5,471 bases of DNA from Chloroflexota bacterium (lineage in GTDB: Bacteria > Chloroflexota > Limnocylindria > Limnocylindrales > CSP1-4), in the NCBI GenBank assembly GCA_021786915.1, contig JAJYMP010000400.1, positions 1 to 5,471 of the forward strand, read 5' to 3'. The notes under the pieces were generated by a model. The model saw only the letters and a program-made list of their open reading frames with translations. It had not been told where the DNA came from and did not search any database. The position numbers and the translations under genes were made by a program. How positions within the stretch are numbered: position 1 is the stretch's first letter; the number at the start of each line of letters is the position of its first letter. Shown here one piece after another: positions 2,497 through 5,471 of this stretch.

Positions 2497-2603
2497 ACCG
2501 GGCCGGGGGCCGCCCGACCGGCTCCGCTGGCGCCCACCTGCGGCGCCTGCGCGGGATCGGCGAAACGGTTCTGTCGCGCGATGCCCCTACCGGTGTGGGA
2601 CAT

Positions 2604-2634: not shown

Positions 2635-2883
2635 ATGCTCCACCTCGCCGCCCTCCACGCCGTCGCCCGCCCGCTCGCGGTCGCGGCCCTCGCGATCGCC
2701 GGCATCGCCGGCCCGGGCCTCGTCGCCGCCCACGCCGCCCCGGCGGCGCCCGCCGCGAGCGCCAACGTCGCGTCGTGCCCGATGCCCGCCCGCGGGCCCA
2801 TGGCGGCGTCGTGCGCCGCGTCGCCGCACGGCACCGCGATGCACGGGGTCACGATGGGGATGGCCGCCGCGGACCGCCACTGA
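2635..2883 (+). CDS. Small exported Met/His/Cys-containing protein, function unknown
   Basis: An 82-residue protein with no recognised family. The ATG at 2635 is chosen because GAGG sits eight bases upstream and a signal-like N-terminus follows at once: hydrophobic Ala/Leu/Val/Ile from residue 4 to about 31, with small residues (AAHAAPA) near 32-38 where cleavage could occur. The remaining roughly 45 residues contain C48-P-M, C60, H65, M69-H70, M74-G-M76 and a final RH, i.e. four Met after the signal, two Cys and several His in a very short chain without clear folded-domain features. Small periplasmic proteins of this composition, such as SilE/PcoE-like ones, bind copper or silver, but no sequence relationship to them can be claimed. 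It heads a block followed by a second small exported gene, an ECF sigma factor and a membrane protein. Inferred: an extracytoplasmic metal-binding or stress-response peptide controlled by that sigma factor. Confidence 0.68.
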   Translation: MLHLAALHAVARPLAVAALAIAGIAGPGLVAAHAAPAAPAASANVASCPMPARGPMAASCAASPHGTAMHGVTMGMAAADRH

Positions 2884-2969
2884 GCCGGCGCGACACCGGG
2901 GCGCACCCGCATCGCCCGCCAAGCGCCGCTGCCAGACCCCACCTGCCCAGCCCTGACCCGAGGACTCCA
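2884..2969 (+). promoter_or_regulatory. Leader region of the second small exported gene
   Basis: These 86 bases separate the two small exported genes. The only recognisable items are the repeated leader motif at 2920-2935 and the ribosome binding site GAGG (2960-2963), six bases before the ATG at 2970. No terminator or convincing promoter was seen, so the two genes may be cotranscribed. Confidence 0.35.
2920..2935 (+). repeat. Leader motif, copy 2
   Basis: CAAGCGCCGCTGCCAG equals the copy at 2604-2618 except for one inserted G. It lies 34 bases before the ATG at 2970, compared with 16 bases in copy 1, so the spacing is not conserved. Confidence 0.35.
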
Positions 2970-3398
2970 ATGCTCACCACCGCCATCGCCCACCTCGCCG
3001 CCCGCTCGCTGCTGGCCGGCGCCCTCGTAGCCTCCGGCGCGCTCGGGGCGAGCGCGATCACGTCGCGGACGGCGTCTGACCCCGCCGCGGCACCCGCCCC
3101 CGCGGCCGCGCTGACAACGACCGGCGCGCCCGTGCGGGCTGCCGCCCAGGACCCGACGGCCGTCCCATCGCCGATGCCCTCCCACCACCCCGAGGCGACA
3201 CCGGCGGCGACCCATCGCGCGAGCCCTGGCGCCACCCACCACCCCGAGCCCGCAACGGCCCACCACGCGGTCGCGATGCCCTCGCGCCACCCCTCCGCGA
3301 CCGCCGCCCCGCACGCCGCGGCGACGCCGTGTCCGGACTCCGCAGGCCACGGCGGCAGCGGCCACGACATGGGCTACGGCGGCACAGGCCACGACTGA
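2970..3398 (+). CDS. Exported histidine-rich, Pro/Ala-rich protein, function unknown
   Basis: A 142-residue protein with no recognised family. The ATG at 2970 follows GAGG with a six-base spacer. Residues 4-30 are a hydrophobic signal peptide or anchor. The rest is low-complexity Ala/Pro/Thr/Ser, probably unfolded, carrying paired histidines: SHHPE (71-75), THHPEP (89-94), AHH (97-99), SRHP (105-108), and a Gly/His tail GHGGSGHDMGYGGTGHD (126-142). It has one cysteine, C121, and few methionines. The SHHPE element also ends the outside tail of the membrane protein at 4195-4854. Its start MLTTAIAHLAARSLLAG resembles that of the preceding small protein (MLHLAALHAVARPLAV), so the two may be diverged duplicates or share an export signal. 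Histidine-rich exported chains of this kind commonly bind divalent metals or copper; that is inference here. An overlapping frame on the same strand starting at 2595 is not used because it reads as arginine-rich shadow until 2970. Confidence 0.7.
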   Translation: MLTTAIAHLAARSLLAGALVASGALGASAITSRTASDPAAAPAPAAALTTTGAPVRAAAQDPTAVPSPMPSHHPEATPAATHRASPGATHHPEPATAHHAVAMPSRHPSATAAPHAAATPCPDSAGHGGSGHDMGYGGTGHD

Positions 3399-3442
3399 CG
3401 GGCCGTCTTGGGGCCCGCCTGCCTGAAGGATGGGCCCGACGG
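3399..3442 (+). other. GC-rich hairpin-forming segment after the His-rich gene
   Basis: CGGGCC (3399-3404) can pair with GGCCCG (3412-3417) around a seven-base loop. Alternatively CCGTC (3403-3407) plus GGGCCC (3411-3416) can pair with GGGCCC plus GACGG (3432-3442). The two folds are mutually exclusive because they share bases. It begins immediately at the stop codon. No T-run follows, so it could be a weak terminator, an attenuator ahead of the sigma gene, or chance pairing in GC-rich DNA. Confidence 0.3.
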
Positions 3443-3458
3443 ACCTGCCGCCAGGCGA

Positions 3459-3469
3459 CCGAGGCACCC
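3459..3469 (+). repeat. CCGAGGCACCC, copy 1 (RBS-like)
   Basis: This 11-base sequence contains GAGG (3461-3464) and places an ATG (3474-3476) nine bases later. The ATG is out of frame with the sigma factor and its frame closes at 3677 with a low-complexity Pro/Ser/Thr product, so it is not called a gene. The same 11 bases recur at 3521-3531. Confidence 0.35.
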
Positions 3470-3520
3470 GACCATGCCGACACGCGTCCCGTCCCCCTTT
3501 CACCCTACCGTGACCCGAGC

Positions 3521-3538
3521 CCGAGGCACCCAGCGATC
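3521..3538 (+). promoter_or_regulatory. RBS copy 2 with a non-standard ATC at the expected sigma-factor start
   Basis: CCGAGGCACCC recurs here, followed after nine bases from GAGG by ATC (3536-3538) in the sigma-factor frame. Translation from it would give ISPVSSVTDHANAAIERDD before the recognisable sigma region 2. The upstream context TGACCCGAG also resembles the TGACCCGAGG leader of the gene at 2970. A true but rare AUC start, an ATG-to-ATC change, or coincidence are all possible. Confidence 0.35.
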
Positions 3539-3607
3539 TCACCCGTCTCCTCCGTCACCGACCACGCCAACGCCGCCATCGAGCGCGACGATGTCGCGAT
3601 CCGCGCC

Positions 3608-4198
3608 GTGCGCGCCGTGCTCGACGGCGACCGCGACGCCTTCGCCGTCCTCGTCGAGCGGGACCTCGCGGCCGTGACCCGCGTCTGCTACCGCGTCCTC
3701 GGCAACGCCTCTGATGCGGAGGACGCCGCCCAGGAGGCGTTCTTGGCCGCGTTCCGGTCGCTGCCGGACTGGCGCGGCGACGGCCCGTTCGGCGCATGGA
3801 TCGCCCGGATCGCCGTCCGCATCTCCGTCCGCCGGGCGCACCAGCGGCGGCCCGTGGACTGGATCGACGTGGCGGCCCTCGAAGGTCCCGACGAGATCCT
3901 CGACGGCGGGGGGCGGCGAGTCGCGCGCCACTTCGCCGAGGCGTCGCTCGAGGCGGCGGACGTTGCCGACCCGGGGCGCGTCGCCGTGGCCGGCGAGGAC
4001 GCCGAGGCCGTCCGGGACGCCCTGCGCGGGCTCGAGGAGCCGTACCGCGAGACCGTGGCCCTGCGCTACTTCGGCGGCCTCACCGTGCCGGAGATCGCCG
4101 AGGCCTGCGGCCGGCCCCAGGGGACCGTCAAGACCCACCTGCACCGCGGGCTCCTGCGGCTGCGCGAGCGCCTCGACGCGCTGGAGGCGGCACGATGA
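3608..4198 (+). CDS. ECF-type RNA polymerase sigma factor (sigma-70 family)
   Basis: Read from the GTG at 3608 this is 196 residues, a normal ECF length. Region 2 spans about 1-80, with DAFAVLVERDLAAVTRVCYR (10-29) and the core-binding motif ASDAEDAAQEAFLAAFRSL (34-52), then AWIARIAVRISVRRAHQRRP (63-82), which is the -10 recognition part. A roughly 50-residue linker follows. Region 4 is at about 133-193, with GLEEPYRETVALRYFGGL and a helix-turn-helix TVPEIAEACGRPQGTVKTHL (159-178) for -35 recognition. There is no extra C-terminal sensor domain. The start is uncertain: the GTG at 3608 has no clear RBS and trims a helix (AIERDDVAIRA) that normally opens such proteins. The frame is open upstream to a GTG at 3329, but that would overlap the previous gene by 70 bases and add an Arg-rich stretch. 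No ATG, GTG or TTG lies in frame between 3332 and 3607. Its stop overlaps the next gene as ATGA, the usual sigma/anti-sigma arrangement. Confidence 0.9.
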   Translation: MRAVLDGDRDAFAVLVERDLAAVTRVCYRVLGNASDAEDAAQEAFLAAFRSLPDWRGDGPFGAWIARIAVRISVRRAHQRRPVDWIDVAALEGPDEILDGGGRRVARHFAEASLEAADVADPGRVAVAGEDAEAVRDALRGLEEPYRETVALRYFGGLTVPEIAEACGRPQGTVKTHLHRGLLRLRERLDALEAAR

Positions 4199-4854
4199 CC
4201 GAGCGGGACGGGTTCACCCCCGACGAGGTGGCGCGGATCCGCTCCGCCGCGTCCGCGCTCGAGGGCGCCGCGCGCGACGCCGGTCCGGGGCCCCGCGCGG
4301 GGCTCGCCCGGGACATCATGGCCGCGATCGCCGACGAGCCGGCACCGGCTCCCGTCTCCGCCATGGCGGCCGCGGCGCGGTCCCGTCGGGCGTCGGCGGT
4401 CCTCGCGTCCCTCCGCGACGCCTGGCGGGTCGCCCTCGGCTCGGGCCGGCCGGTCGGCGTCCGCATCTCGTCCGCACTCGTCGTGCTGGTCCTTGCCGTT
4501 GCCGTCGGCGGCGGGATCGGCGGCGCTGCCGCGGCAGCTTGGGTGGCGACGCACCCGTCGCCGACCGAATCGCCCGCGCCGTCCGTCCCACTCGAGTCGC
4601 CCGTCCCGACCCATCCGGGCTCGGCGTCCCCGCCGGCCGGGATGCCCTCCCCCAGGCCGACGCCGAGCGCGATGCCCGGGCCGTCGGCGATGCCGACCAC
4701 AATGCCGACACGGACAGCGATGCCGACCCGGACGCCGATGCCGAGCTCGATGCCCGCGCGGACGCCCATGCCCAGCCGCCAGCCGATGCCCTCGCCGTCC
4801 GCCATGATGACGCCGAGTCACCACCCCGAGCCGAGTCACCACCCCGGCGGCTGA
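4195..4854 (+). CDS. Single-pass membrane protein with Met/His-rich outer tail, candidate anti-sigma factor
   Basis: A 219-residue protein. Its ATG overlaps the sigma stop by four bases, so it is translationally coupled. Residues 1-88 are cytoplasmic and mostly helical (FTPDEVARIRSAASALEGA and LARDIMAAIADEP), in the place where an anti-sigma domain would sit, but the HxxxCxxC zinc motif of ZAS anti-sigmas is absent; the protein has no cysteine at all. Residues about 91-117 are one transmembrane helix (ISSALVVLVLAVAVGGGIGG). Residues 118-219 are a disordered Pro/Ser/Thr tail with 11 methionines, nine of them as Met-Pro at about 150-199, then MM (204-205), and closing on SHHPEPSHHPGG (208-219). 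Met-Pro and His-rich chains bind Cu(I)/Ag(I) or Cu(II) in known copper proteins; ligand binding here is inference. The same SHHPE element is in the exported protein at 2970-3398. Likely role: membrane sensor that holds the sigma factor. A cell-surface or wall-spanning tail without sensing is the alternative. Confidence 0.75.
   Translation: MTERDGFTPDEVARIRSAASALEGAARDAGPGPRAGLARDIMAAIADEPAPAPVSAMAAAARSRRASAVLASLRDAWRVALGSGRPVGVRISSALVVLVLAVAVGGGIGGAAAAAWVATHPSPTESPAPSVPLESPVPTHPGSASPPAGMPSPRPTPSAMPGPSAMPTTMPTRTAMPTRTPMPSSMPARTPMPSRQPMPSPSAMMTPSHHPEPSHHPGG
4641..4806 (+). repeat. Imperfect short-period coding repeat (Met-Pro tail)
   Basis: The DNA encoding residues about 150-204 of the membrane protein is built from degenerate units centred on GATGCC or CATGCC, spaced by multiples of three bases (mostly 12-18). 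Units such as GCGATGCCGAC and CCGATGCCGAG recur. The pattern keeps frame and Met-Pro while the surrounding residues vary among Ser, Thr, Ala and Arg, suggesting growth by slippage followed by divergence. Confidence 0.6.
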
Positions 4855-4868
4855 GGGTCCAGCGAGGA

Positions 4869-5471
4869 TCAGGAGAGCGGCAGCCGGACCGTGAACGTGG
4901 TGCCGAGTCCCCGTCCGGGGCTCTCGACGGCGACCGATCCGCCCATCGCCTCGACGAGCGATCGTGTGATCGCGAGGCCCAGCCCGCTGCCTCCGGCCTG
5001 GCGCGAGCGGGACGGGTCGGCGCGGTAGAAGCGGTCGAAGACGCGGGCGGCCTCGCTGGGTTCGAGCCCGGGACCGTCGTCGCGGACGGTGATGACGGCC
5101 TCCCGGCCCTCGGCGCGGAGGCCCAGGGCCACCGCACCGCCGTCGCGGCCGTACCGGACGGCGTTGGCGACCAGGTTGTCGAGCACCTGGCCGAGCCGCA
5201 TCGGGTCCGCCAGGAGGCGCACTGGGCTGCCGCCCGCGGTGACCGTGATCGAGCGTGCGGCCGCCGTCGACAGGTGCCGGGCACTGACGGCCTGGAGTGC
5301 CTCGGCGCCGTCCACCGGCACCCGCTCGAGGCGGAGATCGCTCGACTCGGCGCGCCACAGGGTCGCGAGGTCGTCGACGAGGCGCTCGAGACGCGCGGTC
5401 TGGTCACCCAGCACGCGCCAGGCGTCTGGCCCGGGCGAGAACACGCCAGCCTCGAGGCCCTCGACATACCC
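4869..5471 (-). CDS. Sensor histidine kinase, C-terminal catalytic part (5' end outside window)
   Basis: The last 200 residues of a two-component sensor kinase; the frame is open to the right edge, so the start, sensor domain and phospho-accepting histidine lie outside. The visible protein begins GYVEGLEAGVFSP, the segment that normally follows the H-box helix, and continues through the second dimerisation helix (RLERLVDDLATLWRAESSDL). The HATPase domain follows with a complete set of ATP-binding motifs: N-box VLDNLVANAVRYG (95-107, Asn 99 and 103), G1 DDGPG (131-135), F-box FDRFYR (145-150), and G2 GGSGLGLAI (160-168), ending GTTFTVRLPLS. A GTG at 5444 is an internal valine, not a start. The gene is convergent with the membrane-protein gene, with only 14 bases between stops and no visible terminator. 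Its response regulator, if adjacent, would be upstream of it beyond the right edge. No ligand can be inferred from this part. Confidence 0.92.
   Translation of the reverse strand, partial: GYVEGLEAGVFSPGPDAWRVLGDQTARLERLVDDLATLWRAESSDLRLERVPVDGAEALQAVSARHLSTAAARSITVTAGGSPVRLLADPMRLGQVLDNLVANAVRYGRDGGAVALGLRAEGREAVITVRDDGPGLEPSEAARVFDRFYRADPSRSRQAGGSGLGLAITRSLVEAMGGSVAVESPGRGLGTTFTVRLPLS

Follow-up and report, generated by a model that had tools for sequence, protein, structure and literature searches.

Four consecutive genes on the forward strand of a 5,471-nucleotide Chloroflexota sequence (contig JAJYMP010000400.1; the whole stretch is called the window) encode two small exported proteins (exported-1 and exported-2), an extracytoplasmic function (ECF) sigma factor and a membrane partner (Table 1). 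The block belongs to a unit that recurs across one Chloroflexota class. As judged from the sequences, the ordinary form of this unit has an acidic outer tail on the partner and an acidic exported protein, and the methionine (Met)-rich form seen here is a derived paralog. We tentatively read the Met-rich paralog, with a likelihood that we place close to even, as a self-regulated ECF switch that is released by a soft metal and uses the exported proteins as a buffer.

In the proposed mechanism, the partner would act as an anti-sigma factor that keeps sigma bound to the membrane. Sigma would be released when the outer tail binds a soft metal, Cu(I) or Ag(I) being the likeliest, perhaps through cutting of the tail. 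The freed sigma would raise the level of exported protein, which would bind the same ligand outside the cell, buffering it and turning the signal off, while an AUC start codon would keep sigma below the level of its partner. A broader design is also possible, although we hold it with less confidence: across the class, the anti-sigma tail and the sigma-made protein would be matched disordered chains for the same ligand, the ligand would be switched by composition (acidic, or Met-rich for soft metals), and sigma would be made from a conserved AUC start with the anti-sigma in excess. Should these proposals prove true, the composition of a disordered outer anti-sigma tail could reveal its specificity as a ligand sensor, with the paired exported protein as readout, and the switch from acidic to Met-rich paralog would serve as a natural experiment for studying that specificity.

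A class-wide sigma unit and its methionine-rich form

The sigma gene matches Sigma70_r2 (PF04542, 1.2e-15), Sigma70_r4_2 (PF08281, 1.9e-15) and TIGR02937 (84.6 bits, cut-off 42.9), and its predicted product is an ECF sigma factor (sigma-70 group 4) with sigma2 and sigma4 domains only. The nearest solved sequence is SigW (PDB code 5wuq, 2.4e-24). Assignment as a SigW equivalog was rejected, with scores of 105.7 and 106.7 bits for TIGR02948 and NF007223 under cut-offs of 243.1 and 209, as was a CorE-type sigma, since the C-terminus (..LRERLDALEAAR) has no Cys-rich extension. Inspection of the open reading frames together with Pfam confirmed three elements of a preliminary description of this DNA: the four consecutive same-strand genes, the sigma domains and the ATGA overlap, in which the ATG of the partner (4195-4197) overlaps the TGA of sigma (4196-4198).

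In a contig scan with the window sigma, L001 was the one clear relative (50% identity; the next best has 40%). It is laid out as exported gene, sigma and partner, with an exported protein and partner tail that are acidic and Gly/Ser-rich. When 177 genomes of one Chloroflexota class were searched at E<=1e-40, 52 carried the sigma family, at 54 places. Among the databank matches listed, the best 120 of 2028, at least 44 are close sigma relatives (P0024-P0067, 62-88% identity), and the named close relatives are from Candidatus Limnocylindrales. The locus set comprised 55 loci (53 retrieved places, L001 and the window), all with a sigma match. Partner and sigma genes overlap at the sigma stop codon in 47 of 52 loci; in the other five, the partner begins 2 nt beyond it. 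L126, L166 and L170 were left out of this count. By script, a low-complexity exported gene stands directly upstream of sigma in 42 of the 53 loci tried, and none was found there in nine (L121, L122, L131, L141, L148, L151, L162, L163, L165). The window fell under the script threshold and was added by hand; L119, where the contig ends inside the partner gene, was set aside, although its exported gene is seen. Most loci thus have a predicted ECF promoter, a small exported low-complexity protein, sigma, and a partner with a low-complexity outer tail. The preliminary description had staked its module on a conserved neighbourhood in relatives and on coupling of sigma and partner by overlap, and both hold across the class. 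That four genes without a common function were assembled by chance is very improbable: the exported pair occurs in G009 without sigma, which such an assembly would allow, but gene order, promoter, overlap and similar compositions recur across the class and contradict it.

The three Met-type sigmas (window, L119 and L120) form one clade on a long stem (100/100 in a rough bootstrap that had not yet stabilised), and therefore the switch to Met may have been a single event. Genome G010 carries two of these copies (L119 and L120) besides one acidic copy. The tail contains 11.7% Met in the window, mostly at spacings of 4 and 6, and 14.5% in L120, versus at most 1.8% in 38 acidic relatives; its aspartate plus glutamate (D+E) content is 2.1% and 0%, where acidic tails average 14.3%. 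The exported gene adjoining sigma has Met values of 2.9% (window) and 7.6% (L120) versus an acidic maximum of 2.5%, and D+E is 2.5-5.8% in the Met type versus an acidic mean of 26.5%. Histidine (His) is high in the window only, at 5.3% in the tail (acidic tails, at most 4.4%) and 11.5% in exported-2, compared with 1.8% and 1.7% in L120; because of this, Met is the shared feature of the two complete Met-type copies.

The likeness between tail and exported protein, which had been claimed from the window, is borne out by composition and by covariation in the 38 acidic loci. The Mantel correlation of tail and exported composition is 0.19 (p 0.0016), and 0.18 (p 0.005) when made partial on sigma distance. 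Single-residue correlations are 0.50 for D, 0.57 for S, 0.51 for P, 0.47 for G, 0.46 for T, 0.32 for A, 0.29 for N, 0.28 for E and 0.06 for His. Tails share more 4-mers with their own exported protein than with swapped ones (6.05 versus 4.02, p 0.0002).

Exported-1 contains 10.2% Met, 6.1% His and 4.1% Cys in its mature part, whereas exported-2 has 11.5% His, 2.9% Met and 1.0% Cys. The earlier picture of two Met/His/Cys-rich proteins therefore stands for exported-1; exported-2 is His-rich, its Met barely exceeding the acidic maximum. Exported-1 homologs occur at four other places (L119, L120, L184 in G008 and L185 in G009; 41-69% identity), with Met from 5.7 to 11.7% across the copies and two Cys conserved in all five, and exported-2 homologs occur at two (L120, 47%; G009, 44%). 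The exported genes look real because they have homologs elsewhere and because conservation peaks at the second codon position in six of six homolog comparisons. Signal peptides were called from hydrophobicity and AxA-like sites, without a dedicated predictor. Neither exported protein nor the partner has a Pfam or NCBIfam match.

The partner is presumed to be the anti-sigma, with residues 1-86, which contain no Cys, as the putative sigma-binding part. An AlphaFold2 model of modest confidence (mean pLDDT 63.9) places cytoplasmic helices at residues 9-28, 37-47, 52-63 and 66-81. In the tail DNA (4640-4800), another frame reads as Asp/Ala-rich, probably as a mere by-product of GATGCC repeats.

Promoter and start codon of the unit

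The pattern TGAAAC-N16-GNCTC, first seen by eye upstream of the exported gene, or its Met-type form was found in 46 of 53 testable loci, versus 0.34 expected from shuffles; upstream sequence was too short in L122 and L151, and the pattern was not found in L124, L131, L137, L139, L146, L148 and L170. The Met-type variant, GAAACGGTT-N12-GCCCCTACCGG, keeps the N16 spacing and is common to the window, L119 and L120. The window match at 2562 has no mismatches, in a scan that allowed three (0.94 chance matches expected at three). The same site and spacing precede homologous genes in G010 (three sites), G008 and G009. In G010, the long pattern at up to three mismatches gives exactly these three sites (reversed control, 0), ahead of exported-1 in L119, exported-2 in L120 and an orphan homolog of exported-1, all small, exported, Met-rich and Cys-containing. 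Across the 177 genomes at two mismatches, the pattern alone is weak because its six matches equal six in the reversed control; the G008 and G009 matches have an exported-1 homolog downstream, with exported-2 in addition in G009, and the sixth match (G087) has no exported-1 homolog downstream.

The acidic-type pattern, scanned in eight genomes, gave 10 sites in seven of them and none in controls. Five lie at the operon itself, two before a ferric-reductase-like membrane gene (one matched by Pfam, the other by eye), and three are unassigned. In the two ferric-reductase places (L188 in G008:C51 and L190 in G092:C10), the gene, a candidate regulon member, is followed by one for a protein with a hydrophobic N-terminus. 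Acidic-type promoters in L189 (G010:C37) and L193 (G008:C67) stand, by eye, at seemingly matching places, with no downstream gene identified. One promoter type precedes the exported gene, and the unit is apparently self-regulated.

The sigma genes of the family appear to start at AUC, or rarely AUU, behind a Shine-Dalgarno sequence, with gene callers placing the start elsewhere. In the window, the sigma frame contains no ATG, GTG or TTG from 3401 to 3607, and the databank start at 3608 was rejected, as it would remove residues conserved in relatives (IERDD.A.RA). An ATC or ATT in the sigma frame is preceded by a Shine-Dalgarno sequence in 32 of 49 anchored loci (30 ATC, 2 ATT); the other two frames give 3 and 6 such loci, and none of 97 in-frame ATG, GTG or TTG cases is so preceded. 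By codon position, the G+C content is flat before the predicted start (0.69, 0.70, 0.75), and after it a periodicity appears (0.80, 0.55, 0.80); there are 13 in-frame stops across the 40 codons before it and none across the 19 after it. As controls, partner genes start with ATG or GTG (Shine-Dalgarno at 37 of 52), 14 of 42 exported genes lack a Shine-Dalgarno-backed start by the same rule, and of 78 ECF loci from other phyla, 38 have a Shine-Dalgarno sequence at a canonical start and 13 at ATC/ATT/ATA. Eight other ECF genes of G001 gave two canonical starts and one ATC/ATT/ATA start.

Several points weigh against an AUC start: 17 of the 49 loci have no start by the Shine-Dalgarno rule, seven (L121, L137, L139, L143, L151, L152, L158) have an ATG about 49 codons 5' of the anchor, itself without a Shine-Dalgarno sequence, and the counts are not independent because the loci are related. 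In Streptomyces, sigR starts at GTC, which through IF3 leaves the anti-sigma in excess (PMC5472188), and by analogy the AUC start may hold sigma below its partner. It would then add to the example of sigR a second rare start codon that sets a sigma/anti-sigma ratio, spread across a class and overlooked by gene callers.

Possible ligand of the methionine-rich module

A metal as ligand is partly supported by sequence context. L119 adjoins an HMA-DsbD-cupredoxin fusion, from which genes for an IS481 transposase and a glutaredoxin-thioredoxin reductase separate it; the neighbours of L120 are a CPC-motif P-type ATPase, two YHS proteins and, further up, another HMA-DsbD gene. HMA (copper-type) matches occur on four contigs of G010, and both Met-type copies lie within 4-8 kb of one. 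Among the 53 loci besides L119 and L120, only L132 has any of three metal motifs searched in six frames. In L120, a response-regulator frame (2812-3492) breaks in its second half and can be read on in a different frame, owing either to an assembly error or to decay of the gene.

The main rival, which we regard as somewhat unlikely, is an oxidant circuit in which the Met-rich tail and exported proteins would be sacrificial targets of hypochlorite or another oxidant, and oxidation of tail Met would free sigma to make more scavenger. Met-rich exported peptides beside ECF pairs follow this logic in MrpX and BcrS/AbcS-BcrX (PMC8315932), Met rather than His unites the two complete Met-type copies, and redox or sulfur genes are neighbours (DsrE, ArsR-rhodanese and cysteine desulfurase; the glutaredoxin-thioredoxin reductase fusion in L119). 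However, the known operons contain msr genes (PMC8315932), whereas no methionine sulfoxide reductase occurs among the window genes, and the PF01625 and PF00174 matches of G010, G009 and G008 all lie on contigs other than those with the exported genes (the contigs being fragments). A metal is favoured over an oxidant because of this separation, the two Cys kept in every exported-1 copy and the HMA genes near both G010 copies.

It is unlikely that the module has no ligand at all, the tails being wall-spanning or glycosylated stalks, the exported proteins envelope-stress filler and the Met and His the result of repeat drift in one paralog. The freely varying low-complexity tails, the acidic low-complexity common state, SigW as the nearest solved structure and a possibly single Met switch would fit such a module. 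Against it, Met enrichment reaches the tail, exported-1, the L120 exported-2 and the loop of the neighbouring kinase while D+E falls in tail and exported protein, and the Met-type paralog kept its own promoter. The window kinase is 79% identical to that of G009 over 200 aa of the C-terminal part, and the G009 kinase (L185 7213-8679), next to the exported pair, has a Met-rich predicted outer loop, GGAGMRGAGMAGAGQGGMMGGTTSGMMD.

Other results count against the soft-metal switch. A class I anti-sigma domain (ASDI) is a three-helix bundle with a fourth helix; no anti-sigma family matched the partner by Pfam among 22 members, and a fold search gave no informative match to a known anti-sigma domain. 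The covariation of tail and exported protein is modest, and genome-wide residue composition may contribute. A strict Met/His design is disfavoured by the uneven His content, as the Met part holds in both the window and L120 and the His part fails in L120. None of the three metal motifs was found in the window, and no HMA or P-type ATPase match lies on the exported-1 contigs of G009 and G008. The promoter pattern was not found upstream of the copper-type genes of G010; therefore, the circuit may not control transport. In G009 (L185 8905-9689), exported-1, exported-2 and the kinase are kept with no sigma or partner between them. The metal-response module first proposed is supported by the HMA genes near both G010 copies and is revised in that the unit is ordinarily acidic, its Met-rich form being a derived paralog.

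Among the flanking genes of the window, Pfam and NCBIfam recognised the start of an FAD oxidoreductase, DsrE, ArsR-rhodanese, a cysteine desulfurase and a histidine kinase. DsrE and ArsR-rhodanese are kept near exported-1 of G008 (L184), where the adjoining cysteine desulfurase (6645-6896) is an 83-aa remnant of the 380-aa gene of the window.

Table 1. Features of the four-gene block and its surroundings in the window
Feature	Position	Strand	Description
Predicted ECF promoter of the block	2561..2593	+	CGAAAC-N16-GCCCCTACCGG
exported-1	2635..2883	+	82 aa; Met/His/Cys-rich, two conserved Cys
exported-2	2970..3398	+	142 aa; His-rich (HHPE words); C-terminal HGGSGHD..GTGHD
Shine-Dalgarno-like GAGG	3523..3526	+	9 nt 5' of the predicted AUC start of sigma
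ECF sigma factor	3536..4198	+	Predicted AUC start 3536 (ATC in the sigma frame); databank start GTG 3608 (P0023)
Membrane partner, whole	4195..4854	+	219 aa
Partner residues 1-86	4195..4452	+	Presumed to bind sigma; four helices, predicted to lie in the cytoplasm
Partner membrane segment(s), residues 87-119	4453..4551	+	Hydrophobic sequence; AlphaFold2 helices 87-105 and 110-119
Partner outer tail, residues 126-219	4570..4851	+	Without predicted secondary structure; ends in SHHPEPSHHPGG
Sensor histidine kinase, C-terminal part	4869..5471	-	Convergent with the block; cut by the window end; HATPase_c 1.6e-29

Comparison with known systems

MrpX/BcrX, the bufferins, CorE, SigW/RsiW and SigR each share some features with the block and differ from it in at least one that was tested or reported. 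The naming SigF/NrsF is reportedly used for the Azospira MrpX system. MrpX and the Brucella system BcrS/AbcS-BcrXQP resemble the block in combining an ECF sigma and its membrane anti-sigma with a small Met-rich protein that is exported and controlled by the sigma (PMC8315932). Both are hypochlorite responses with methionine sulfoxide reductase genes inside the operon, and AbcS is a six-helix NrsF-family protein (PMC8315932). In contrast, the partner here has no Pfam match and the reductase genes lie on other contigs; with no such gene adjoining the Met-rich peptide among the window genes or on the fragmentary G010, G009 and G008 contigs, membership in MrpX/BcrX was rejected.

The bufferins (PMC12452194) and Gig of Cupriavidus (PMC10304878) likewise link ECF sigma/anti-sigma genes to small exported copper-related peptides, and the excerpts consulted describe no matched tail for either. 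Unlike the block, bufferins need the MNIO enzyme PF05114 (PMC12452194); a bufferin system was rejected, with PF05114 in none of five class genomes (G010, G008, G009, G001, G004) and a control positive in 2 of 14. CorE of Myxococcus is a copper-linked ECF sigma, but it senses through a Cys-rich domain on sigma itself, without a linked anti-sigma (PMC3107203). SigR-RsrA of Streptomyces shares a sigma gene with a rare non-canonical start and an anti-sigma in excess; it differs in its start (GTC versus the predicted AUC) and in its unrelated signal, a disulfide in RsrA (PMC5472188).

SigW/RsiW of Bacillus provides the nearest solved sigma and the best, though below cut-off, NCBIfam match. SigW is an envelope-stress factor, with a consensus -35 box, TGAAAC, as in the acidic-type promoter here. 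RsiW has a zinc motif (PMC7406223), whereas residues 1-86 of the partner lack Cys. Direct comparison with CnrYXH and SilE/PcoE consisted of Pfam, NCBIfam and PDB searches. SilE/PcoE offer Met/His-rich exported chains (SilE), and CnrYXH offers a periplasmic metal-binding part, CnrX, with a metal-responsive switch, CnrX being a separate folded sensor and not a disordered tail.

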